Assembly: GCA_028280575.1 (NCBI GenBank)
Contig: JANQLN010000079.1
Coordinates: forward strand, 1 to 64,000
DNA from: Clostridia bacterium
GTDB lineage: Bacteria > Bacillota > Clostridia > Acetivibrionales > STF1-152
Direction of reading: 5' to 3'
DNA length: 64,000 nucleotides
The notes under the pieces were generated by a model, which did not search any database, had not been told where the DNA came from, and saw only the letters and a program-made list of their open reading frames with translations. Shown here piece by piece: positions 1 through 10,741 of this stretch (position 1 is its first letter; each line of letters starts with the position of its first letter). The translations under genes and the position numbers were made by a program.

Positions 1-99
1 AAAGCGTTAAATATCCAGATATTCGCCGTTTTTTTGAAGAATTTGGACAAAAAAATGAATCAAAAATATATGTACAGGAGTTCTGTCCAAGGCTCCTAG
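1..99. repeat. Palindromic repeat family A, right half (cut by window start)
   Basis: Bases 1-30 are identical to 25051-25080, and similarity continues with substitutions to the CTCCTAG end (93-99), which matches the right end of the complete copy at 24982-25149. The left half lies outside the window. It ends about 25 bases before the metG promoter. No coding sequence is seen in it. Probably a MITE- or REP-like element; see the full copy. Confidence 0.8.
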
Positions 100-123
100 C
101 AATTTGATCATTTTGCCAAAGGC

Positions 124-152
124 TTGAAAAAAAGTATTGTTAATTGTATAGT
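124..152 (+). promoter_or_regulatory. Putative sigma-A promoter of metG
   Basis: TTGAAA (124-129), a 17-base spacer and TATAGT (147-152). Transcription would start near 159, about 55 bases before the TTG start of metG. The promoter overlaps an open extension of the metG frame, which argues that the extension is not translated. Confidence 0.6.
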
Positions 153-213
153 ATATTTATGGCAGGCTTATGCAATTAAAAGAAAACAGTTGTCAAATGG
201 GAGGCAGGATAAG

Positions 214-2160
214 TTGAAGCGAAAAAAATATTATATTACTACCGCAATAGTATATACGTCCAAAAAACCTCATATAGGAAATACATATGAAGCTGTCCTG
301 GCAGACAGTATTGCAAGATTTAAGAGGCTTTTAGGATATGATGTGTTCTTTCTTACAGGTACCGACGAGCATGGACAGAAGATTCAACAGGTTGCCCGGG
401 AAAACGGAATAACACCTAAACAGCATGTTGATAAGGTGGCAGGGCAAATAAAAGACATCTGGGATATGATGAATACAAGCTATGACAAATTCATCAGAAC
501 TACCGACGGCTACCATGAAAAAGCCGTACAGAACATATTTAAAAGCTTGTATAACAAAGGAGACATTTACAAAGGCAAGTACAAGGGCCTTTATTGTACA
601 CCCTGTGAATCGTTTTTTACTGAAACCCAGCTGGTAGAAGGTAAATGTCCCGATTGTAAAAGGGAAGTCCAGAAAACGGAGGAAGAAGCCTACTTTTTTA
701 AGTTAGGCAAGTACCAGGATAAATTAATCAAATACATTGAAGACAATCCCGGGTTCATACAGCCTGAGTCCAGAAAGAATGAAATGATGAATAACTTTCT
801 CAAAAAAGGATTGCAGGATTTATGTGTTTCAAGGACTTCATTTGATTGGGGAGTACCTGTGACCTTTGACGGAGGACATGTTATTTATGTATGGATAGAT
901 GCGCTTAGTAACTATATAACTGCTTTGGGCTTTGACCCGGAAGGAGAATGTGGAGAATTATACAATAATAACTGGCCTGCCGATGTACACTTGATAGGCA
1001 AGGATATTCTGAGGTTTCATACGATATACTGGCCTATTATGCTAATGGCACTGGAACTGCCTCTTCCCAGGCAGGTCTTTGGTCATCCCTGGCTCCTGGT
1101 AGGCAGCGACAAGATGAGCAAATCAAAGGGGAATGTTCTATATGCGGACGATCTGGTTAAGCATTTTGGAGTGGATGCGGTCAGATACTATGTGCTGCAT
1201 GAAATGCCCTTTGCCCAGGACGGCACTATAACATATGAGCTGTTGATAAGCAGAATAAACTCAGATTTGTCTAACATACTTGGAAATCTTGTAAACAGGA
1301 CGTTAGCAATGATAAATAAATACTTTGACGGTATAATAATTAAGGGCAGGGAGGGGCAGCCTGTTGATGAGGAACTTAAAAGTATGGCAATGAGTACGGT
1401 TGAAAATACTGCTGAAAAAATGGAAAAATTAAAGGTTTCCGAAGCTATGGATGAAATATGGAATCTTCTTAGAAGAAGCAATAAGTATATTGATGAGACA
1501 ATGCCATGGATACTTGGCAGGGACGGGTCTAAAAAAGACAGGCTTGCAGCAGTCCTGTACAACCTGGCTGAGGTAATAAGAATAGCGTCTGTGCTTTTGG
1601 GCCCTTTTATGCCTGAGACAGCTGCGAAAATCCAGCAGCAAATAAATACAAAGGATGTTGGTTGGGACAGTATACAGGATTTTGGAAAAATCCGGGAGGG
1701 AACAAAAGTCGGAGAGGCCTCTCCACTCTTTGTACGGATAGATGAAAAAAAGAAAATGGATGAAATCGGCAACGCAGAAAAAAGCAGTGCTGAAAACAAA
1801 AAGGGTAATAAAAAAATAAAGGAAACGGGAAGCTTTGAGAATATTACCATTGATGATTTTGCCAAAATAGACTTAAGAGTGGCAAAAGTGCTGGAGGCTG
1901 AAAAAATTGAAGGCACAGACAAGCTTATAAAATTCAAGCTCAAGCTTGGTGATGAAGTAAGGCAGGTGGTATCGGGAATAGCAAAATACTATAAGCCTGA
2001 TGAGCTTAAAGGTATGGATGTTATACTGGTTGCCAACTTAAAACCTGTAAAGCTTAAAGGGGTCGAGTCCCAGGGAATGATACTTACAGCATCAGGCAAA
2101 AAGGACTTGGTTCTTCTAACCACCGATAAGGATACGGACAGCGGCAACAAAGTAAGCTGA
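214..2160 (+). CDS. metG: Methionyl-tRNA synthetase
   Basis: Charges tRNA-Met with methionine in the cytoplasm. The class I Rossmann core carries PHIGN (19-23, the HIGH box), a CxxC pair at Cys128/131 with a second CxxC near 145 (zinc knuckle), and KMSKS at about 300-304. A lysine- and glutamate-rich linker near 515-545 leads to a C-terminal Trbp111/OB tRNA-binding domain (about 550-648), typical of the long dimeric bacterial form. The TTG at 214 is chosen because GGAGG lies 9 bases upstream and the protein then begins MKRKKYYITT, as in family members; the frame stays open to 124 but that stretch holds the promoter. Length 648 residues, normal. A palindromic repeat follows directly. Confidence 0.97.
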   Translation: MKRKKYYITTAIVYTSKKPHIGNTYEAVLADSIARFKRLLGYDVFFLTGTDEHGQKIQQVARENGITPKQHVDKVAGQIKDIWDMMNTSYDKFIRTTDGYHEKAVQNIFKSLYNKGDIYKGKYKGLYCTPCESFFTETQLVEGKCPDCKREVQKTEEEAYFFKLGKYQDKLIKYIEDNPGFIQPESRKNEMMNNFLKKGLQDLCVSRTSFDWGVPVTFDGGHVIYVWIDALSNYITALGFDPEGECGELYNNNWPADVHLIGKDILRFHTIYWPIMLMALELPLPRQVFGHPWLLVGSDKMSKSKGNVLYADDLVKHFGVDAVRYYVLHEMPFAQDGTITYELLISRINSDLSNILGNLVNRTLAMINKYFDGIIIKGREGQPVDEELKSMAMSTVENTAEKMEKLKVSEAMDEIWNLLRRSNKYIDETMPWILGRDGSKKDRLAAVLYNLAEVIRIASVLLGPFMPETAAKIQQQINTKDVGWDSIQDFGKIREGTKVGEASPLFVRIDEKKKMDEIGNAEKSSAENKKGNKKIKETGSFENITIDDFAKIDLRVAKVLEAEKIEGTDKLIKFKLKLGDEVRQVVSGIAKYYKPDELKGMDVILVANLKPVKLKGVESQGMILTASGKKDLVLLTTDKDTDSGNKVS

Positions 2161-2161
2161 T

Positions 2162-2268
2162 TTTGAGAGTTTCCCCATTTTTTAAAACAGGTATAAATTC
2201 ATTCCCAATGATAACTGTTTCATTATACACATAAATCTTCTCAATGTTAAAAATGGGGAAACTCAAAT
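2162..2268. repeat. Palindromic repeat family B, full copy
   Basis: About 107 bases whose ends are inverted copies of each other: TTTGAG..TTTCCCCATTTTTTAA on the left against TTAAAAATGGGGAAACTCAAA on the right. It starts two bases after the metG stop. The right half (2207-2267) recurs at 10745-10805 with 4 mismatches in 61. It can fold into a long hairpin and could end metG transcription, but its recurrence suggests a small mobile palindrome. No long open frame. Confidence 0.8.
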
Positions 2269-2279
2269 AAGCTGATAGA

Positions 2280-2308
2280 TTTACTTATTTATGTTAATGT
2301 AGTAAAAT
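2280..2308 (+). promoter_or_regulatory. Putative promoter of tatD
   Basis: TTTACT (2280-2285), 17-base spacer, TAAAAT (2303-2308). It lies immediately after the family B repeat and about 38 bases before the tatD start. Confidence 0.45.
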
Positions 2309-2345
2309 AGAACATAGAAAATGAAAAACCGGAGTGGAGCCGCAG

Positions 2346-3119
2346 ATGCTTATAGATACGCATGCCCATTATGATGACGGCAGGTTTAACGAAGACCGGC
2401 ATGAAATAATTGAAAGAGTACACAGGGAAGGTGTTTCATATATACTGAATCCGTCTTCAAGCCTGTCTTCAGTCGCTGAAACGATTTCCCTGTCCCAAAA
2501 ATACGGATATGTATATTCTGCCGTAGGCATACATCCTCACAGCATAAGTGAAGCGAATGAAAATACCATGGCAGTTATAAAAAATTTCGCTTCAAATAGC
2601 AAGGTAGCTGCAATAGGTGAAATCGGCCTTGACTATTATTATGACAACAGTCCCAGGGAGGTCCAGAAATATTGGTTTGCAAAGCAGGTCAGCCTGGCGG
2701 GAGAATTAAAGCTGCCGGTAATTATACATGACAGGGATGCTCATGAAGATGTCTTAAATATAATAAAAAAAGAACAGGCATATAAGACGGGAGGGGTTTT
2801 TCATGCATTTTCCGGCAGTGTTGAAATGGCAAGGGAGCTTGTGGAATTGGGATTTTACATTTCCGTAGGCGGTGTGGTTACATTCAAAAATGCCAAAAAA
2901 ATTATTGATGTTGTAAAATATATACCGGAGGACAGGCTTCTCCTGGAAACTGATGCACCCTACCTGACTCCTGAGCCTAAAAGGGGAAAAAGAAATGATT
3001 CCGGCAACCTGATATATATTTTGGAAAAAGCAGCTGCTATAAAAGGAGTTGAAGCGGAGGAGCTGGCAAAGATAACATCTGAAAATGCTATAAGGCTCTT
3101 TGGTTTTGGAGGAGAATAA
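2346..3119 (+). CDS. tatD: TatD family metal-dependent hydrolase (DNase-like)
   Basis: A TIM-barrel amidohydrolase-fold protein of the TatD/YcfH family, whose members act as Mg-dependent 3'-5' exonucleases or phosphoesterases. Visible metal-ligand motifs in order: DTHAHYDD (4-11), GEIGLDYYY, HDRDAHED, FHAFSGS and LETDAPYL. Length 257 residues, usual for the family. The ATG at 2346 is chosen because GGAGTGG lies 8 bases upstream; an in-frame GTG at 2334 sits inside that site. It follows metG, a pairing common in Firmicutes. The next gene begins two bases after its stop, so the two are probably co-transcribed. The physiological substrate cannot be told from sequence. Confidence 0.93.
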   Translation: MLIDTHAHYDDGRFNEDRHEIIERVHREGVSYILNPSSSLSSVAETISLSQKYGYVYSAVGIHPHSISEANENTMAVIKNFASNSKVAAIGEIGLDYYYDNSPREVQKYWFAKQVSLAGELKLPVIIHDRDAHEDVLNIIKKEQAYKTGGVFHAFSGSVEMARELVELGFYISVGGVVTFKNAKKIIDVVKYIPEDRLLLETDAPYLTPEPKRGKRNDSGNLIYILEKAAAIKGVEAEELAKITSENAIRLFGFGGE

Positions 3120-3121
3120 TA

Positions 3122-3823
3122 ATGAAAAAATTCTTTCTTGTACTGATTTGCGCAGTAATTATCCTGTTTTTCATCGGCTTTAACTATTTACTTTGGGATA
3201 GGGAAAACAAGGCGGAGGATATTAAAACTTTAAAAAATACAAATGACAGCAATGATGTTACCATAAATTACCTTTCCAAAGAAATGAAAAGGCTGAATGA
3301 TGAAAATGAAGGCTATGTGAAAGAGCTGGACCGATTGACAAAGGATATTGAGCTGCTCAATAAGAAGGTTAACGATTCGGCTATGGTGAACAGCGAATTG
3401 AAAAAGGAGCTTTCAAGCAAGGAAGAAAGTATAGGGTTTCTTAAAGATGGATACGACAATCAGGCACTTGCCGCTATTATAAACGGCTGGGTGGAAAATT
3501 TGAATGAGGGAAACTTTTTTGAAGCATATGAAATCAGATTTGGTCATGGAATCAACAGTGAAAATGGTTTGACTTTGGAGGCATTTACTTTGTTGTTCAA
3601 AGGCATTGTAAAACAAATTGCGGTAGAGTCAATTGACGAACATATGGGAGAAGATATTAAAGCAAATGGTCAAAAGGCCTTTAATGTAGTGCTTGAAGCA
3701 GTAGTGGATGAAACAGTTGAAAATACATATTTCACCAACGGCAAAAACAGCAGGATATTTGTAATGGATTTTGATAGGAGTACAAGCAATTGGGTCATTA
3801 CAGACATAATGCAGCAGGATTAA
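3122..3823 (+). CDS. Membrane-anchored coiled-coil protein, unknown function
   Basis: I do not recognise a named family. One N-terminal membrane segment (about 5-24) is followed by a charged heptad-like region (about 35-105, rich in Leu, Glu, Lys and Asn) that should form a coiled coil. A C-terminal domain of about 120 residues (115-233) has the alpha+beta pattern seen in NTF2-like extracytoplasmic domains: an AALAAIINGWVENLNEGNF-type helix pair, then strands. The domain guess is inference. The ribosome binding site GGAGGAG lies in the end of tatD, so the gene is translated from the tatD message. The product probably faces outside the membrane. Confidence 0.75.
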   Translation: MKKFFLVLICAVIILFFIGFNYLLWDRENKAEDIKTLKNTNDSNDVTINYLSKEMKRLNDENEGYVKELDRLTKDIELLNKKVNDSAMVNSELKKELSSKEESIGFLKDGYDNQALAAIINGWVENLNEGNFFEAYEIRFGHGINSENGLTLEAFTLLFKGIVKQIAVESIDEHMGEDIKANGQKAFNVVLEAVVDETVENTYFTNGKNSRIFVMDFDRSTSNWVITDIMQQD

Positions 3824-3845
3824 ACTGCTCAAAGCCATACCAATT

Positions 3846-3874
3846 TTGACAAATGATGAAATATGTAGTACAAT
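3846..3874 (+). promoter_or_regulatory. Strong sigma-A promoter upstream of carD
   Basis: A perfect TTGACA (3846-3851), 17-base spacer and TACAAT (3869-3874). The next gene starts at 4072, which implies a leader of about 190 bases. Confidence 0.75.
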
Positions 3875-3880
3875 AAAATG

Positions 3881-4071
3881 GTATACTTTTATTTTTATTG
3901 CTTATAAAAATAAAAAATTAAGTATTCGGAGGTAGGAATTATTGTATTGTGCTCTTCCGGTTGATTAGTAAAGCCTTTATGGACATGCCTTTTAAAGACT
4001 GTTCTGGGAATTTCCAAATACTAATGACAAGTTCTTAATATTAATGTGTAGTTTTTTTTGGAGGATTTTTA
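3881..4071 (+). promoter_or_regulatory. Long 5' leader of carD with possible leader peptide
   Basis: The transcribed leader holds an A/T-only hairpin (about 3886-3917) and a clear GGAGGT at 3928-3933. That site is followed 8 bases later by TTG at 3942 opening a short frame, M-Y-C-A-L-P-V-D-stop, ending at 3968. No match to a known riboswitch was recognised. The leader peptide is speculative: a GGAGGT can occur by chance. Confidence 0.3.
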
Positions 4072-4551
4072 ATGTTCAATGTAGGAGACAAGATAGTATA
4101 TCCCATGCACGGAGCTGGAATAATAGAGTCTATTGAAGAAAAGGAAATATTAGGTGAAAAGCAGAGCTATTATGTTGTCAAAATGCCGATTGGTGATATG
4201 AAGGTAATGATTCCGACAAATAACGTAGGGGATATTGGTATCAGAGAAATTATCAGTACCCAGGATGTGGACAAGGTAATGGAAATTCTAAAGGAAAACG
4301 GTATAAATGTTACTAGCAATTGGAACAAAAGATATCGTGAAAACATGGTAAAGATTAAAAGCGGGGACATCTTTGAAGTTGCAGAAGTTGTCAGAACTCT
4401 AATGCTGAGAGATAGGGAAAAAGGATTGTCGACTGGAGAGAGGAAGATGCTTAACAGTGCAAGGCAGATATTAATTAGTGAACTGGTTCTTGCTAAAGGT
4501 ATCAATCAGCATGATTTAGAGAGTTTGATTGATAGTTACATAAGCGTTTAA
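4072..4551 (+). CDS. carD: CarD/CdnL-type RNA polymerase-binding regulator
   Basis: A 159-residue protein of the CarD_CdnL_TRCF family. The N-terminal Tudor-like RNA polymerase interaction domain (about 1-60; begins MFNVGDKIVYPMHGAG) is followed by a helical DNA-binding domain (about 70-159). Family members bind the beta subunit at promoters and stabilise open complexes, notably at rRNA promoters; in clostridia and bacilli the role is less studied. It is preceded by its own strong promoter and a long leader, with a GGAGG site 8 bases before the ATG. The PIN/TRAM gene 27 bases downstream and ispD form the usual Firmicute neighbourhood for this gene. Confidence 0.92.
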   Translation: MFNVGDKIVYPMHGAGIIESIEEKEILGEKQSYYVVKMPIGDMKVMIPTNNVGDIGIREIISTQDVDKVMEILKENGINVTSNWNKRYRENMVKIKSGDIFEVAEVVRTLMLRDREKGLSTGERKMLNSARQILISELVLAKGINQHDLESLIDSYISV

Positions 4552-4578
4552 CAATTTATAGCAGGGGAGACGGATAAA

Positions 4579-5643
4579 ATGCTGAATAATATTATCAGGA
4601 TATCCTTTGCAGTAGTGGGAGGCATAACCGGTTTTTCACTTACAAAAACTGTTATACTTACATATGGCTTACATACCGATGGTATAGGTTTGTTGATATA
4701 TACTGTTTTTTCAGGTCTTACCGCTTTCATATTTTATTCAGCCGGTAACAGGCTGATAAAAGTTATATCCAAAAACCTTGACGGCCTGGAGAAGCTTATT
4801 CAGAGCATGACCCTTTATGAGCTTACAATCAGCAGTGTGGGACTTATTATTGGATTGATAATTGCAAATCTTATAACTATTCCAATTGTCAAGGTCAACA
4901 TTATAGGAGTGCCTGTATCCATAACGGTGAATATACTTTTCGGGTTTATGGGTATATACATAGCCGCAGGTAAAAGAAATGAAACCCTGCATGATTTCTT
5001 TAAAGAAAGAGATGGGGAGAAAAAATCAATTCCCATGCCCAAAATCATAGATACAAGTGTACTTATTGACGGAAGGATAGTAGATATAATCAGAAGCGGG
5101 TTTATGGAAGGCGTAATTATTATTCCCGAATTTGTGCTGGTTGAATTAAGGCATATTGCCGATTCACAGGATTCTTTAAAAAGAAACAGGGGAAGGCGGG
5201 GCCTGGATGTTATTAACATGATCCGCAATGAACTTGGCTATCCTGTAAAAATTGACAATACCAGGCTTCCTGAGGGCGGAGAGGTTGACAGTGAGCTTCT
5301 TGGAGTTGCCAAAAAGCAAAACGGGTGTATTGTAACCACTGATTTTAATCTGAATAAAGTGGCCAGTGTCCAGAATATTCATGTTCTTAATGTAAATGAG
5401 CTTGCCAATGCGGTTAAACCAATAGCCCTGCCGGGTGAAAATCTGGAAGTACAGGTAATAAAGGATGGAAAAGAAAATGGGCAGGGAATCGGTTATATGG
5501 AAGACGGAACAATGATAGTGGTAGACGGGGGCCATACCCATATCGGGGAAAAGATAAATGTGGTTGTTACAAGCGTTTTGCAAACGGCTGCCGGTAGAAT
5601 GATATTTGCAAAGCCAAAGATCCCGGTTGAAAAAGCAATTTAA
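4579..5643 (+). CDS. Membrane PIN/TRAM domain protein (YacL-like)
   Basis: A 354-residue protein with four predicted membrane segments in the first 140 residues, then a PIN-like nuclease domain (about 150-270). The PIN domain opens with DTSVLIDGRIVDI and ends near VTTDFNLNK, so acidic metal-binding residues are present. A C-terminal TRAM domain (about 290-350; EDGTMIVVDGG) follows. This architecture is that of Bacillus YacL, conserved next to carD and ispD. PIN domains suggest RNA cleavage and TRAM suggests RNA binding, but the cellular role is not established. It is likely co-transcribed with carD (27-base gap). Confidence 0.93.
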   Translation: MLNNIIRISFAVVGGITGFSLTKTVILTYGLHTDGIGLLIYTVFSGLTAFIFYSAGNRLIKVISKNLDGLEKLIQSMTLYELTISSVGLIIGLIIANLITIPIVKVNIIGVPVSITVNILFGFMGIYIAAGKRNETLHDFFKERDGEKKSIPMPKIIDTSVLIDGRIVDIIRSGFMEGVIIIPEFVLVELRHIADSQDSLKRNRGRRGLDVINMIRNELGYPVKIDNTRLPEGGEVDSELLGVAKKQNGCIVTTDFNLNKVASVQNIHVLNVNELANAVKPIALPGENLEVQVIKDGKENGQGIGYMEDGTMIVVDGGHTHIGEKINVVVTSVLQTAAGRMIFAKPKIPVEKAI

Positions 5644-5734
5644 ATATATATGGAATATAAATAGTTTTACAAGGCTTTTAATAGTGTCAAAGCAAGATCA
5701 TAACATAAGCAGAATGCTCATCAAGGAGGTTTAT

Positions 5735-6418
5735 TTGTTTACCAGTGCTGTTATTGTTGCTGCCGGAGCAGGAAAACGTATGGGCGAGGACATTAATAAA
5801 CAGTTTTTCGAGCTAAACGGTGTGCCTGTTGTTGTCAGAACATTAGAAATATTTGCAAAAAGCAGCTTTATTAATGAAATTATTCTTGTTTTAAGCAATA
5901 ATGATATTCTTTATTTTAAAAACCATATTCTAGCCGGAGGTACTTTCAATAAGCTCTCATCTGTAGTTACAGGAGGCAGGACAAGGCAGATATCCGTGTT
6001 TAACGGGCTGCAAAGGGTATCCCCCGGCACCGATGTCGTACTGGTACATGATGGTGCCAGGCCATTTGTCAAGGATGATGTTCTAAAAAATTGCATTTTT
6101 GGTGCTATGGAGCTTGGAGGAGCTTGTGCTGGGATACCGGTTAAGGACACAATTAAAAAAACGGACGGCAAATTAATAAAAGAAACGCTTGACAGAAGCT
6201 GTTTGTGGGCAATACAAACCCCACAGGCTTTTAAGTACCATATCTTAATGGATGCACACAAAAAAGCCCGGGCGGAAGGATTTTCAGGGACCGATGATTC
6301 CGTACTTGTTGAAAGGACAGGAATAAGGCCCGGAATTGTTATGGGCGGTTATGACAATATTAAGATTACAACAAAGGAAGACCTTGACCTTGCCCAAATA
6401 ATACTGGAGAAAAAATGA
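5735..6418 (+). CDS. ispD: 2-C-methyl-D-erythritol 4-phosphate cytidylyltransferase
   Basis: Transfers CMP from CTP to MEP in the non-mevalonate isoprenoid pathway. The nucleotide-binding loop AAGAGKRMG, VLVHDGARPF, the GIPVKDTIK segment, RSCLWAIQTPQAF and TDDSVLVE are all present, so the active site looks intact. The TTG at 5735 is chosen because AAGGAGGT lies 4 bases upstream and the protein then begins MFTSAVIVAAGAGKRMG; an open extension runs back into the previous gene. Length 227 residues, normal. It ends 10 bases before the end of a minus-strand ispF-like gene, so ispD and that gene are convergent rather than in the usual tandem order. Confidence 0.95.
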   Translation: MFTSAVIVAAGAGKRMGEDINKQFFELNGVPVVVRTLEIFAKSSFINEIILVLSNNDILYFKNHILAGGTFNKLSSVVTGGRTRQISVFNGLQRVSPGTDVVLVHDGARPFVKDDVLKNCIFGAMELGGACAGIPVKDTIKKTDGKLIKETLDRSCLWAIQTPQAFKYHILMDAHKKARAEGFSGTDDSVLVERTGIRPGIVMGGYDNIKITTKEDLDLAQIILEKK

Positions 6419-6428
6419 AGGGCTGCGG

Positions 6429-6905
6429 CTATAAGCTTTCAACTGTTACACAGGCGAAAACCTGGATGCCAATTCCTTTTCCAAACTGAGTGAGGCCCTC
6501 TCCGGTAGTTGCGGTTATTCCTATACAGCTTTCCTGCAAATCTAAGAACTCTGACAGGCTCCGGCGCATGTCGCCTATTTTGGGGCTGATTTTAGGGATA
6601 AGGCATTCAATAGATAGCGAAACATGGACTATACTTCCATTAAGATGCTTAAGTGCTTCTTCCAGGTATGCCCTACTGTCCGTTATTCCTTGGTTGTGGC
6701 ACATATCGTCACTTATTTTGCCTAATATGTTAACACATGTAATGCCGCTAACCGCATTTGTTATTGCGTGGAGCACTACATCTGCATCGCTGTTACCCTT
6801 TAGAGGAGGTTCGCCTTCAAAAATTATTCCGCCCAATAAAAGCTTTTTATCCTTGTTACTATAATCAAATCTATGACTGTCCTGCCCGATTCCAAACCTG
6901 ACCAT
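6429..6905 (-). CDS. Divergent IspF-like protein (MECDP synthase family)
   Basis: A 158-residue homologue of 2-C-methyl-D-erythritol 2,4-cyclodiphosphate synthase. The zinc-ligand positions are kept (Asp9 and His11 in GQDSH, His46 in DVVLHAI), as are GDMRRSL and an ATTGE segment. However, several residues conserved in IspF differ: GHSDADV is GNSDADV, the Asp after the third ligand is Asn50, the GDIG motif is NILG, and HFPDTDP is not recognisable. GFTGR near the C-terminus is also altered. It has its own promoter (6937-6965) and AAAGGA 8 bases before the ATG. It may be a repurposed paralogue; whether a canonical ispF exists elsewhere cannot be seen. Confidence 0.8.
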   Translation of the reverse strand: MVRFGIGQDSHRFDYSNKDKKLLLGGIIFEGEPPLKGNSDADVVLHAITNAVSGITCVNILGKISDDMCHNQGITDSRAYLEEALKHLNGSIVHVSLSIECLIPKISPKIGDMRRSLSEFLDLQESCIGITATTGEGLTQFGKGIGIQVFACVTVESL

Positions 6906-6936
6906 GTAATTATTCCTTTCTTTTTATATTATCTCT

Positions 6937-6965
6937 ATTATATTAAAGCAGCATATAACCATCAA
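6937..6965 (-). promoter_or_regulatory. Promoter of the ispF-like gene
   Basis: On the minus strand: TTGATG (6965-6960), 17-base spacer, TATAAT (6942-6937), about 30 bases before the start codon. Confidence 0.6.
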
Positions 6966-7075
6966 TAAAAAAACAAAAAAATTTCCAAAAAAATCATTAT
7001 TCCATAATAAAGATTAATTTTATTGGCAATAATAGTTAAGAGGTAAAACAGCTTTAAAAAAAATGGAGGGATTTT

Positions 7076-7879
7076 ATGAAAAATAGGATAGTTTTTTTGA
7101 TAGCGCTTGTTTTGGTGTTAACGGCAGCTACGGGTTTATTTGCCGCATATGCCGGGGATAGTAAGGAATTAGCCAGTGTCAATGACGAAGCTGTACCTGT
7201 ATTTGAAAAGGTGAGTTATGCCAGCGGAGTTGTCAATGCAAGCTTTCTTAACATGAGGCAGGGGCCGTCAACAGATTATACTGTTTCAAAGGTATTGAAA
7301 AAAGGACAAACCGTTAATATTATCGGAAAGATGGGTTCATGGTATGCTGCAATTGATGCGGATAGCGGCATTATCGGATGCTTGCACAGTAGTTATATCA
7401 CTATGCCTGCCTCTGTTGACTTAACGTCAGAGAAGCTTCCCGACCCTGACAGGAAAGAGGAAGAAAAAGAAACTGATAAAGGTGCAGTGCTTGATGTTTC
7501 TGAAAATGAAAAGGTTCTTCTCGACTTGATCAATGAATCAAGAATAGAGGCAGGTCTTAAACCTCTTGAATTTGATCCGATACTTTTAAGGGTAGCGAGG
7601 TTAAAAGCACAGGATATGGTAGACAATAATTATTTTTCACATCAATCCAATGACTTTGGTTCACCCTGGGATATGATGAGAAAGTATGATATAGCTTTTG
7701 CTACGGCAGGTGAGAACATAGCCGGCAATAAAACCATTGAGGGAGCTTTTAATGCGTGGATCAATTCGGAAGCGCATAAAAAGAACATTTTGAATGATAA
7801 ATTCAGCCATACGGGAATAGGTATAGTGGAAAGCCCGGCTTATGGTAAGATACTGGTCCAGCAATTTATCGGCAAATAA
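7076..7879 (+). CDS. Secreted SH3-CAP domain protein (YkwD-like)
   Basis: A 267-residue exported protein. A signal peptide (about 1-26) is followed by a bacterial SH3 domain (about 50-105; NASFLNMRQGPSTDY is the typical start) and a charged linker. The C-terminal CAP/SCP domain (about 140-267) carries LINESRIEAGLKPL, a FSHQS histidine, GENIAG and WINSEAHKKNIL, with the conserved His and Glu residues of the CAP cavity. SH3 domains of this type bind cell wall; bacterial CAP proteins related to YkwD and SafA-associated factors are poorly defined. GGAGG lies 8 bases before the ATG. It starts a run of three wall-targeted genes, each with its own terminator. Confidence 0.92.
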   Translation: MKNRIVFLIALVLVLTAATGLFAAYAGDSKELASVNDEAVPVFEKVSYASGVVNASFLNMRQGPSTDYTVSKVLKKGQTVNIIGKMGSWYAAIDADSGIIGCLHSSYITMPASVDLTSEKLPDPDRKEEEKETDKGAVLDVSENEKVLLDLINESRIEAGLKPLEFDPILLRVARLKAQDMVDNNYFSHQSNDFGSPWDMMRKYDIAFATAGENIAGNKTIEGAFNAWINSEAHKKNILNDKFSHTGIGIVESPAYGKILVQQFIGK

Positions 7880-7911
7880 ACCGGAGCTTTTGCCAGAGTG
7901 AAAGCGGGGAG

Positions 7912-7967
7912 TGTATACCATATGGGATGTCTTTAATTCCTGGAACATGACCTTTGAAATACAAGCA
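7912..7967. repeat. Palindromic repeat family C, diverged left half
   Basis: Resembles 15229-15284: the blocks CTTTAATTCCT and CTTTGAAATACAA are shared, with roughly three quarters of bases identical by eye. It lies in the 312-base gap 7880-8191, which otherwise holds a terminator and the promoter of the next gene. It is degenerate compared with the copy at 15235-15345. Confidence 0.55.
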
Positions 7968-8051
7968 TTTTGCTTATATCATAATCTTTTGGGTATTACG
8001 CATGTATTATTCCGCATGGCTTCTAATCCCCGCTTTTAAGTAAGCTTCCCG

Positions 8052-8094
8052 CCCTATTTCATATTTTTTTCGTAAAATATGAAATAGGGGTTTT
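8052..8094 (+). terminator. Strong hairpin terminator after the CAP gene
   Basis: CCCTATTTCATATTTT (8052-8067) pairs perfectly with AAAATATGAAATAGGG (8074-8089) and is followed by GTTTT. A 16-base perfect stem. Confidence 0.8.
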
Positions 8095-8110
8095 ATGTCT
8101 ACACAAAGAA

Positions 8111-8119
8111 TGCTATAAT
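8111..8119 (+). promoter_or_regulatory. Extended -10 promoter of the first HxCxH protein gene
   Basis: TGCTATAAT (TG-N-TATAAT) at 8111-8119, followed by ATTA. No good -35 is seen 17 bases upstream. The same TGCTATAATAT string precedes the paralogous gene (9489-9499). Confidence 0.5.
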
Positions 8120-8191
8120 ATTAATGGAGGAATTATTTTGAAATATATAATGTTACTCTATTAATATTACATATTCTTTTAGGGGGAGCAA

Positions 8192-9232
8192 ATGTTTAAA
8201 AGGAGTACTACTTCGGTTGCAATTCTTTTGTTGTTGGTTTTGGGCCTGTCACAGGCTTTATTTGTCCGGGAAGTGCATGCATCAGATACTTTGAAAAGCG
8301 GAATGAAGGGTGAAGATGTCATGATGCTTCAGCAAGAGCTTTCCAAACTTGGATTCTTTAATGCCAGTCCAACCGGTTACTATGGTGAAATAACGCTGAG
8401 CGCGGTTAAAAATTTTCAAAAGGCTTATGGCCTCTACCCCGACGGTGTAGCCGGCAAAAATACTGTAAATCGCATCAAGGAGCTTCTTTATGATAAAATA
8501 CTGGAAAAGGAAATGGAAGGCGACGAAGTTTTTATGCTGCAGGAAAGTCTTAAAAGGCTTGGTTACTTTTCTGTAAAGCCTACAGGGTATTTTGGTGATT
8601 TGACGGAAGCTGCCGTATTGAAATTCCAAAAGGCAAATGGGTTATATGCAGACGGTGTAGCAGGTATTAAAACCTTAAGCTTGCTCAGGGATATCTTGGC
8701 CGGTGCTCAAAAAAGCGGGGTTAAAACCTCAAGAAGCAGTTCAAGAAATGTAAGTTATAAAACTCCCTGGTTTGGGGGAGTGGACAAAATATTCAAACGG
8801 GGAGCGGACGCTACGGTTTACGACATAAAATCAGGGTTAAGCTTCAGGGTAAAAAGGACATTTGGCACTAATCATGCAGATGTTGAACCGGTTTCCAAAG
8901 AGGATACCGCAGTAATGAAGCGTATTTATGGCGGCAGCTGGAGCTGGAGCAGAAGGGCAATAATTGTAACCGTTAACGGCAGGAGGATTGCTGCGTCCAT
9001 GAATGGAATGCCCCATGCCGGGCTTGATAAATATGCATCGGGCAAATATATAAGCAACAGGTCCGCAGGATACGGGTATGGATATAATTATGATACTGTA
9101 AAGAATAATGGTATGAATGGACATTTTTGTATACATTTCTACAAGAGCAGGCTTCATGTAAACAACAAGGTTGACCCTTTACACCAGGAAAAGGTTGAAG
9201 AAGCAAACCAGTGGGCCCAGAGAAATTACTGA
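8192..9232 (+). CDS. Secreted peptidoglycan-binding protein with unrecognised HxCxH domain (paralogue 1)
   Basis: A 346-residue exported protein: signal peptide (1-30, cleavage after VHA), two PG_binding_1 repeats (about 34-92 and 108-168; each ends DGVAG..T), a short Ser-rich linker, and a C-terminal domain (about 190-346) that I do not recognise. That domain has conserved polar residues shared with its neighbour: NHAD (His228, Asp230), MPHAG (His275), GHFCIHF (His311, Cys313, His315), Ser319, His322, Asp328 and His331. The pattern could suit a zinc enzyme or a cysteine transpeptidase, but neither is shown. GGGGGAG lies 8 bases before the ATG. The paralogue at 9619 has the same architecture. 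Confidence 0.9.
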   Translation: MFKRSTTSVAILLLLVLGLSQALFVREVHASDTLKSGMKGEDVMMLQQELSKLGFFNASPTGYYGEITLSAVKNFQKAYGLYPDGVAGKNTVNRIKELLYDKILEKEMEGDEVFMLQESLKRLGYFSVKPTGYFGDLTEAAVLKFQKANGLYADGVAGIKTLSLLRDILAGAQKSGVKTSRSSSRNVSYKTPWFGGVDKIFKRGADATVYDIKSGLSFRVKRTFGTNHADVEPVSKEDTAVMKRIYGGSWSWSRRAIIVTVNGRRIAASMNGMPHAGLDKYASGKYISNRSAGYGYGYNYDTVKNNGMNGHFCIHFYKSRLHVNNKVDPLHQEKVEEANQWAQRNY

Positions 9233-9274
9233 CAGTGTTTTCAGGTGAATGAAAAAGGGTATATTATGTAAACA

Positions 9275-9303
9275 AAAAAACAGCTAAAAAAGCTGTTTTT
9301 TGT
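9275..9303 (+). terminator. Terminator after HxCxH paralogue 1
   Basis: AAAAACAGCT and AGCTGTTTTT flank an A-rich loop (about 9276-9300), followed by TGTT. The flanking A and T runs make it work in either direction. Confidence 0.75.
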
Positions 9304-9467
9304 TATATTTTTATTACAGCAGCAATACAGGTGCGTTACTTCCTGTGTATTACAGTATTTAAAAAAACCTTTAAAGGCTTTAAAACAGTATATTTCATCT
9401 TTTCAAGTTTTTCTTGCAAATGAGTATTTTACTAATTAAACCAAAATATTCACAAGTATTTTGCCAA

Positions 9468-9497
9468 TTGTAAATGTAAAAACATTTATGCTATAAT
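9468..9497 (+). promoter_or_regulatory. Promoter and long leader of HxCxH paralogue 2
   Basis: TTGTAA (9468-9473), 18-base spacer, TATAAT (9492-9497) with an upstream TG (extended -10). Transcription would start near 9504, leaving about 115 bases of leader. The leader holds an imperfect GGAGC..GCTCC hairpin (9544-9569) around CTAAATTTAG, and an 18-base string (9582-9599) that recurs at 29488. The rest of the 386-base gap 9233-9618 holds only the previous terminator and A/T-rich sequence. Confidence 0.6.
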
Positions 9498-9618
9498 ATA
9501 TTATGTATACTTTAAGTTTTTGCATTTAGCTTCTTTAGTTAATGGAGCCTGCTAAATTTAGTGCGCTCCTTGCTTAAAACCGATTAAGGTGCAAATTGCT
9601 TATAGGAAGGAGGGTTCT

Positions 9619-10665
9619 ATGAGGAAAAGAAGGATAATTCGTTTACTTGCTTTGATTTTGCTGGTCTCTACATATTTTATGGTAAGCTCACTTTCAGCTT
9701 ATGGTTTGCTGTTAAAGAAAGGTTCAAGGGGAAACAATGTGGTTAAGCTTCAAAATAATCTGAAGCAATTGGGTTATTTTAATGCAAGGGCAACAGGCTA
9801 CTATGGCAGCATAACTGAAAAATCCGTTAAAAACTTTCAAAAAAGCCACAATCTTCTTGTGGACGGTATAGCTGGGAACAATACAATTTCCCTTTTGAAC
9901 AGCAAATTGGAACCTGTTAATGCTTCTGTTACCCCGCTGAAAAAAGGTATGAGAAGCAGCTCTGTTGTTGAGCTTCAGCAGGGCCTTAAAAAGACAGGTT
10001 ATTACAGCAGTCTTATTACAGGCTATTATGAGAGTGTAACAGAGTCTGCAGTTAAAAAGCTGCAGGCAGATTACGGACTGCCTGCCGACGGAATTGCCGG
10101 GCGAAACACTCTGGCTCTTTTGGACAAGCTTTTAAACGGAGCTGTTACAAAAGCGTCTTCCAGGGCAGGGGTATCAAGGCAAAACAACTACATGGCAAAT
10201 TGGTTTGGTTCTGTTGCAAATATTTTTTCAAGGGGTACTGTCGCAACGGTTTATGACATCAAATCCGGCTTGAGCTTCAAGGCCAAACGTACATATGGTG
10301 AAAACCATGCAGATTGTGAGCCCCTTACAGCTAACGACACCGCCATAATGAAGAAGATTTATGGGGGAAAGTGGAGCTGGAGCAGGAAGGCTGTTGTAGT
10401 TGAAGTAAACGGAATGAAATTTGCGGCATCAATTAATGGGATGCCCCATGCCGGATTAGATAAATATCCGGCCGGAAAATATGTTTCAAACAGGAGCGGC
10501 GGATTTGGAGCGGGTTTAAATTTTGACCAGGTAAAAGGTAATAACTTTAACGGGCATTTTTGCATCCATTTCTACCACAGCAAGACCCACGGGACAAACA
10601 GAATAGATCAAAAGCATCAGGCCATGATTAGGACTGCAAATGAATGGATCAAAAGAAATAATTAA
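9619..10665 (+). CDS. Secreted peptidoglycan-binding protein with unrecognised HxCxH domain (paralogue 2)
   Basis: A 348-residue paralogue of the preceding gene with the same plan: signal peptide (about 1-28), two PG_binding_1 repeats (about 32-95 and 105-172), linker, then the C-terminal domain (about 192-348). The polar residues are conserved at NHAD, MPHAG, GHFCIHF (His313, Cys315, His317), Ser321, His324 and the DxxHQ motif. Here the segment after Ser reads KTHGT, closer to an HGT motif than in paralogue 1. GGAAGGAGGG lies 6 bases before the ATG at 9619; an upstream in-frame start at 9589 has no such site. Its own promoter and terminator show independent expression. Confidence 0.9.
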   Translation: MRKRRIIRLLALILLVSTYFMVSSLSAYGLLLKKGSRGNNVVKLQNNLKQLGYFNARATGYYGSITEKSVKNFQKSHNLLVDGIAGNNTISLLNSKLEPVNASVTPLKKGMRSSSVVELQQGLKKTGYYSSLITGYYESVTESAVKKLQADYGLPADGIAGRNTLALLDKLLNGAVTKASSRAGVSRQNNYMANWFGSVANIFSRGTVATVYDIKSGLSFKAKRTYGENHADCEPLTANDTAIMKKIYGGKWSWSRKAVVVEVNGMKFAASINGMPHAGLDKYPAGKYVSNRSGGFGAGLNFDQVKGNNFNGHFCIHFYHSKTHGTNRIDQKHQAMIRTANEWIKRNN

Positions 10666-10706: not shown

Positions 10707-10741
10707 AGCCCTGCTTTCCCAAAAGAAAGCAGGGCTTTTTA
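10707..10741 (+). terminator. Terminator after HxCxH paralogue 2
   Basis: AGCCCTGCTTTC (10707-10718) pairs with GAAAGCAGGGCT (10725-10736) and is followed by TTTT. A 12-base perfect GC-rich stem: a classic intrinsic terminator. Confidence 0.9.

Follow-up and report, generated by a model that had tools for sequence, protein, structure and literature searches.

Two adjacent genes of a Clostridia bacterium (GenBank assembly GCA_028280575.1, contig JANQLN010000079.1) encode secreted proteins that end in the same, seemingly nameless domain, and the locus therefore raises the question of whether this domain, hereafter X, is an enzyme acting on the cell wall and, if so, by what chemistry. The window, i.e. 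the whole stretch of DNA that was analysed, comprises positions 1–64,000 of the contig.

The gene pair and its shared C-terminal domain

The two genes lie head to tail on the + strand (Table 1). A first-pass annotation had described them as tandem paralogues, and both open reading frames were indeed located where it had placed them, with products 54% identical over 318 aa. Secretion and two peptidoglycan-binding repeats, which it had also proposed, were borne out by signal peptides read from the sequence and by two PG_binding_1 repeats detected with Pfam in each protein (E = 3e-38 and 3e-39). X, defined here as the shared C-terminal domain, measures ~155 residues in both genes (~130–155 across the family) and is 63% identical between them, compared with 45% in the part N-terminal of X; the duplicates have kept the conserved motifs while the rest diverged, as had been claimed.

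Because GGAGGG stands just upstream of the ATG at 9619, this codon is a more likely start of gene 2 than the GTG at 9589. The hairpin after each gene, together with the promoter of gene 2, indicates that the two are probably separate (monocistronic) transcription units. Directly upstream, on the same strand, another secreted protein with SH3 and CAP domains is encoded at 7076–7879 of the window, and a terminator-like hairpin at 8052–8089 marks its end. A third copy of X was found elsewhere in the same genome (L083:1489–1968), where it follows LysM-like repeats and carries Asp in place of Cys (GHFDIHF), so that Cys-type and Asp-type X coexist in one genome.

Table 1 Features of the gene pair in the window. 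X residues are numbered (A1 numbering) as (base − 8738)/3 + 1, residue 1 beginning at base 8738.
Feature	Coordinates	Strand	Remarks
Gene 1	8192..9232	+	346 aa; signal peptide, two PG_binding_1, X; RBS gggggag just before ATG
Gene 1 signal peptide	8192..8281	+	KR, hydrophobic core, cleavage after VHA; read from sequence
Gene 1 PG_binding_1 copy 1	8309..8473	+	residues 40–94; Pfam
Gene 1 PG_binding_1 copy 2	8510..8692	+	about residues 107–167; two Pfam stretches, PG_binding_2 at 107–149
Gene 1 X domain	8759..9229	+	long form, Cys type; alignment, AlphaFold2
NHADVEP in gene 1 X	8870..8890	+	invariant H46 and D48, mostly E/Q at 50; strand b3
N89-G-M-P92-H93-A-G in gene 1 X	9002..9022	+	N89 covaries with C131; P92 and H93 invariant
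Long-form insertion in gene 1 X	9026..9090	+	~23 residues, ends approximate; absent in most relatives
GHFCIHF (128–134) in gene 1 X	9119..9139	+	strand b6; 131 is Cys or Asp family-wide
S137-x-x-H140 and H149-Q150 in gene 1 X	9146..9187	+	
Intrinsic terminator after gene 1	9275..9301	+	terminator-like hairpin
Sigma-A-like promoter of gene 2	9468..9497	+	TTGTAA-18-TATAAT, extended -10; consensus match only
Gene 2	9619..10665	+	348 aa from ATG; signal peptide, two PG_binding_1, X
Gene 2 PG_binding_1 copy 1	9727..9897	+	Pfam
Gene 2 PG_binding_1 copy 2	9940..10119	+	approximate
Gene 2 X domain	10192..10662	+	long form, Cys type
Intrinsic terminator after gene 2	10707..10736	+	terminator-like hairpin

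Pfam and NCBIfam searches with X alone gave no match at E ≤ 10, PHROGs yielded nothing of note, and among PDB sequences there was no real match, either by single sequence or by profile. Likewise, none of 85 relatives matched a Pfam family meaningfully, and literature searches found no paper on the domain. The first-pass annotation had called the domain unrecognised and had named a profile hit to a characterised family as a finding that would count against it; these searches (Pfam, NCBIfam, PHROGs, PDB sequences) returned none. We regard X as a candidate for a catalytic-domain family without description so far, within the known kind of modular wall enzymes.

Distribution in bacteria and phages

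When about 85,000 species genomes were scanned, 105 relatives were found, and the 80 listed among them belong to Clostridia, Halanaerobia and other Bacillota. Of 399 genomes sampled from the window's phylum, 140 contained X, many of them in several copies; its spread is patchy (1 of 13 further genomes from the window's class, 7/71 in another class). Copies from Tepidibacter and Cytobacillus came from plasmid records and are annotated as 'peptidoglycan-binding domain-containing protein' or 'hypothetical protein'. X is common in Clostridia and relatives yet invisible to the annotation libraries tested, and the members of a whole candidate wall-enzyme family therefore go by no other names than "peptidoglycan-binding protein" or "hypothetical".

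Wall modules (PG_binding, LysM, SH3, G5) accompany X nearly always, with X itself usually at the C-terminus. The modules that precede it include two to four PG_binding_1 repeats, SH3, LysM-G5, LysM-like repeats and, in one arrangement, nine SH3 plus PG_binding_1; a single 215-aa protein consists of a leader and X, with no other Pfam domain. An N-terminal hydrophobic segment was found in 82 of 84 bacterial X proteins. Several proteins (L102, L116, L122, L127, L199 and others) continue past X into a helical-looking conserved tail of ~40 or more residues. Bacterial gene neighbourhoods contained clade-specific neighbours only, and no conserved neighbour hinting at a substrate; in the Defluviitalea/Epulonipiscium group (L007, L011, L013, L017, L018), tatD, a yabE-like gene and ksgA are found near X.

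Among 2.9 million IMG/VR contigs, the X profile retrieved four (L312–L315), and two further scans gave the same four. Annotated GenBank phages contained no X domain, a phage query being matched by its PG_binding part only. All four phage proteins combine PG_binding_1 with X, keep all key residues, and are the sole PG_binding_1 proteins of their contigs. None has an N-terminal hydrophobic segment; they thus show two marks of phage endolysins, a PG_binding_1 module and no signal peptide. A third mark, a holin beside the gene, was found in L312 and not seen in L313–L315, contigs that may be fragments. The lysis cassette of L312 (3598–6130) comprises a gene for an ELLD endolysin-like protein with SH3, the PG_binding plus X gene, and Holin_LLH; the genes ahead of the ELLD gene are large, probably tail or fibre genes. 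Two candidate lysins, ELLD and X, are thus encoded side by side there. In L313 and L314 the X gene adjoins terminase and portal genes. Amidase_2, Amidase_3 and GH25 were not found in any of the four contigs, which may be incomplete. L315, a contig of 169 kb, encodes many tRNAs, and its X reading frame is open under TAG = Q; in the stretch 1–10369 there are 17 tRNAs within 10 kb, including one whose anticodon is CTA, as well as genes that are open only if TAG = Gln. L315 is likely a stop-codon-recoded phage.

Conserved residues, couplings and predicted structure

Conservation was counted over 266 non-redundant X domains. No or almost no variation was seen at W11, G43, H46, D48, D56, W70, P92, H93, N124 and G128, while A85, S87, H140 and H149 are ~99% conserved. 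Position 50 is Glu in about 80% and Gln in about 18% of domains. At position 129, where GHFCIHF has its first His, relatives show H, V, Q or M; position 131 is Cys in 186 domains and Asp in 79, with Gly in a single degenerate protein. The motifs singled out in the first-pass annotation (NHAD, MPHAG, GHFCIHF, SxxH, DxxHQ) are present in both genes of the pair, but two of their residues, Cys131 and the His at 129, vary in the wider family.

The identity of residue 131 goes together with that of residue 89: partners of Cys131 are mostly Asn (166) or His (10), and those of Asp131 are Ala, Ser or Thr in 79/79. On the best tree, built without columns 89 and 131, parsimony placed 15 changes between Cys and Asp. 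On well-supported branches, residue 89 followed 131 in 4–5 of five independent pairs and did the opposite in none, a number of pairs too small for p < 0.05. Three proteins (L281, L227, L285) carry a degenerate X in which H46, D48 and H93 are kept, and H133, S137 and H140 are all lost; they are possible pseudo-enzymes, and the joint loss suggests that these three residues act together.

In a mean-field analysis, 89–131 was the strongest coupling of the family. The couplings reproduced two beta hairpins of the predicted model, and linked strand b6 to the PH loop, b3 to the 118–127 loop, and S87 to H149. Since couplings join the segments bearing the conserved residues, these are probably neighbours in the fold; coupling around the conserved residues was marginal in a permutation test (p = 0.04, Neff about 193). 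An internal duplication of X (NHADVEPLT versus GHFDIHFLN, in matching register) was considered and rejected, hhalign of the two halves giving a probability of 0.2.

AlphaFold2 returned confident models for both the long form (pLDDT 95.8, pTM 0.91) and the short form, which has ~23 residues fewer (pLDDT 94.1, pTM 0.90), with the element order a-b-b-b-a-b-b-(insert)-b-a. Foldseek searches of the PDB with both models gave nothing at E ≤ 0.001, a result with which a permuted known fold stays compatible, and a viral structure library gave nothing significant.

Candidate functions and comparison with known systems

Because X occurs in secreted, wall-gripping proteins, is widely spread and has a copy in a phage lysis cluster, it is probably a wall-cutting enzyme. 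Our preferred reading, to which we assign a probability of roughly 0.5, is that X is an undescribed catalytic domain acting on peptidoglycan, secreted and wall-tethered, used as a lysin in rare phages, and probably a zinc-dependent hydrolase. That X is an enzyme at all is likely, and by analogy with known amidases it would probably be a metal-dependent peptidoglycan hydrolase domain. In favour of this reading we count the invariant H46, D48, H93, N124 and H140 across 266 divergent domains, the limitation of position 131 to Cys or Asp (one degenerate Gly apart), the 89–131 coupling, the wall modules, the N-terminal hydrophobic segments of bacterial but not phage copies, the L312 cassette, the failure to find Amidase_2, Amidase_3 or GH25 in the phage contigs, and the Cys/Asp exchange documented at the zinc site of type-2 amidases; against it, the marginal permutation test on the couplings, the rarity of phage X (four contigs), ELLD as a second candidate lysin beside X in L312, the place of the gene next to terminase genes and no holin seen beside it in L313 and L314, and bacterial neighbourhoods that give no hint of a substrate. 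A more specific proposal, that X represents a novel class of peptidoglycan hydrolases of unsolved fold, present in about a third of the sampled genomes of the phylum, borrowed by phages, and with a metal ligand that alternates between Cys and Asp along with its neighbour, is more tentative, and we hold it at somewhat less than an even chance.

According to the preferred reading, bacteria secrete X proteins, whose signal peptide features are visible in the sequences, and tether X to the wall by interchangeable binding modules, while rare phages may deploy it as a holin-dependent lysin, as suggested by the arrangement of the genes and the lack of a signal peptide. The putative active-site pocket would bring together H46/D48 (b3), N89-P92-H93 (end of b5), N124, [C/D]131 with H129/H133 (b6), and H140, the couplings pointing to the proximity of these segments. 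The most likely chemistry would be hydrolysis of a peptidoglycan bond, peptide or amide, with the help of a metal (zinc); the predicted ligands are His residues together with residue 131 (Cys or Asp), in the manner of amidases with a His/His/Cys or His/His/Asp site. The wall-targeted enzyme with an unrecognised domain envisaged in the first-pass annotation is supported by the missing profile match, the confident fold without PDB match and the phage copy in a lysis cassette; of the two mechanisms it had offered, the metal hydrolase fits better by analogy, and the cysteine transpeptidase is rejected as a mechanism of the family, with Asp in 79/266. If X does cut peptidoglycan, wall biology would gain one more catalytic fold, and lysins a further candidate class; the strict Cys/Asp switch coupled to residue 89 poses a directly testable question on metal or nucleophile chemistry.

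Alternatively, X could be a non-cutting domain specialised in binding or sensing a wall ligand (a stem-peptide or glycan receptor), with its conserved residues binding that ligand. The weak top Foldseek hits were PilZ-type ligand-binding split barrels (E 0.04–0.05, TM about 0.3–0.48), and X is found alongside other binding modules; however, it almost always follows these modules at the C-terminus, where catalytic domains commonly sit, no other major lysin was recognised in the phage contigs apart from ELLD in L312, and the dense invariant His/Asp residues and the C/D alternation look catalytic. We consider such a role unlikely. A peptidoglycan glycosidase or lytic transglycosylase, in which D48, E/Q50 and D56 would supply acid/base residues and His would position the sugar with no metal, is quite unlikely: D48 and D56 are essentially invariant, residue 50 is mostly Glu, and the phage lysis context suits any muralytic activity, but the Gln found at 50 in about 18% of domains, the Cys/Asp alternation with four to five fixed His (unusual for glycosidases) and the lack of a GH fold match speak against it.

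A specific role in sporulation or germination, a statement about role that is compatible with hydrolysis, appears improbable. SpoIIIAA was present in 134 of the 140 genomes with X and in 201 of the 259 without it (Fisher p = 6e-7; raw counts, uncorrected for kinship), and the N-terminal halves of both proteins scored best, among NCBIfam models, with that of the spore protein SleB (E = 2e-27 and 7e-30). At the same time, six X-positive genomes have no SpoIIIAA, X also occurs in phages and in Halanaerobium, and the promoter ahead of gene 2 is sigma-A-like. Finally, it is very improbable that X is a relative of L,D-transpeptidases (YkuD) or NlpC/P60 and works as a cysteine transpeptidase or peptidase, since residue 131, although Cys in most domains within a MPHAG...GHFCIHF pattern that resembles HG...SHGC by eye, is Cys or Asp (the latter also in the third copy of the source genome) and has switched repeatedly, which rules out Cys catalysis as the mechanism of the family, and there is neither a PDB-chain sequence match nor a significant fold match.

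L,D-transpeptidases (YkuD) are secreted and often fused to PG_binding_1 or LysM, and their His and Cys motifs come in an order similar to those of X; assignment of X to YkuD (PF03734) was rejected, with no Pfam match at E ≤ 10 or in 85 members, no fold match, and no invariant catalytic Cys (C 186, D 79, G 1). NlpC/P60 was rejected as well (Cys-His dyad not conserved, no profile match). SleB, a modular spore cortex enzyme (PG_binding_1 plus Hydrolase_2), resembles genes 1 and 2 in the N-terminal half, but its C-terminal domain is Hydrolase_2 where theirs is X, and the full-length SleB scores of both proteins fall far under the NCBIfam cut-off. PilZ and related split barrels show a weak overall likeness of topology, below significance; PilZ proteins are cytoplasmic c-di-GMP binders, whereas X is set apart by additional helices and a site rich in His. 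LAS metallopeptidases (M23, M15) have, like X, HxD- and HxH-like motifs on strands, but with HxxxD or Hx6D in place of the H-x-D of X, whose second motif is [HV]x[CD]xH; membership in M23/M15, whose ligands are H-x3-D or H-x6-D plus HxH or ExxH, was rejected on motif spacing and the lack of a profile or fold match.

A parallel in chemistry is offered by the type-2 amidases. Homology of X to Amidase_2 (PF01510), considered for 'WHAG' versus 'PHAG' and the hairpin before it, was rejected, with no support from Pfam, PDB sequences or fold. Among type-2 amidases, LysC and T7 lysozyme have a His/His/Cys zinc site, whereas that of AmpD and AmiE is His/His/Asp (PMC7404271). Compared with this site at the level of sequence, X has invariant His and a strict Cys/Asp choice at 131, and its alternation resembles the two His plus Cys or Asp of Amidase_2/PGRP as an analogy of chemistry only. 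In its way of working, too, X would be like Amidase_2/PGRP, wall hydrolases that serve both bacteria and, as lysins, their phages.
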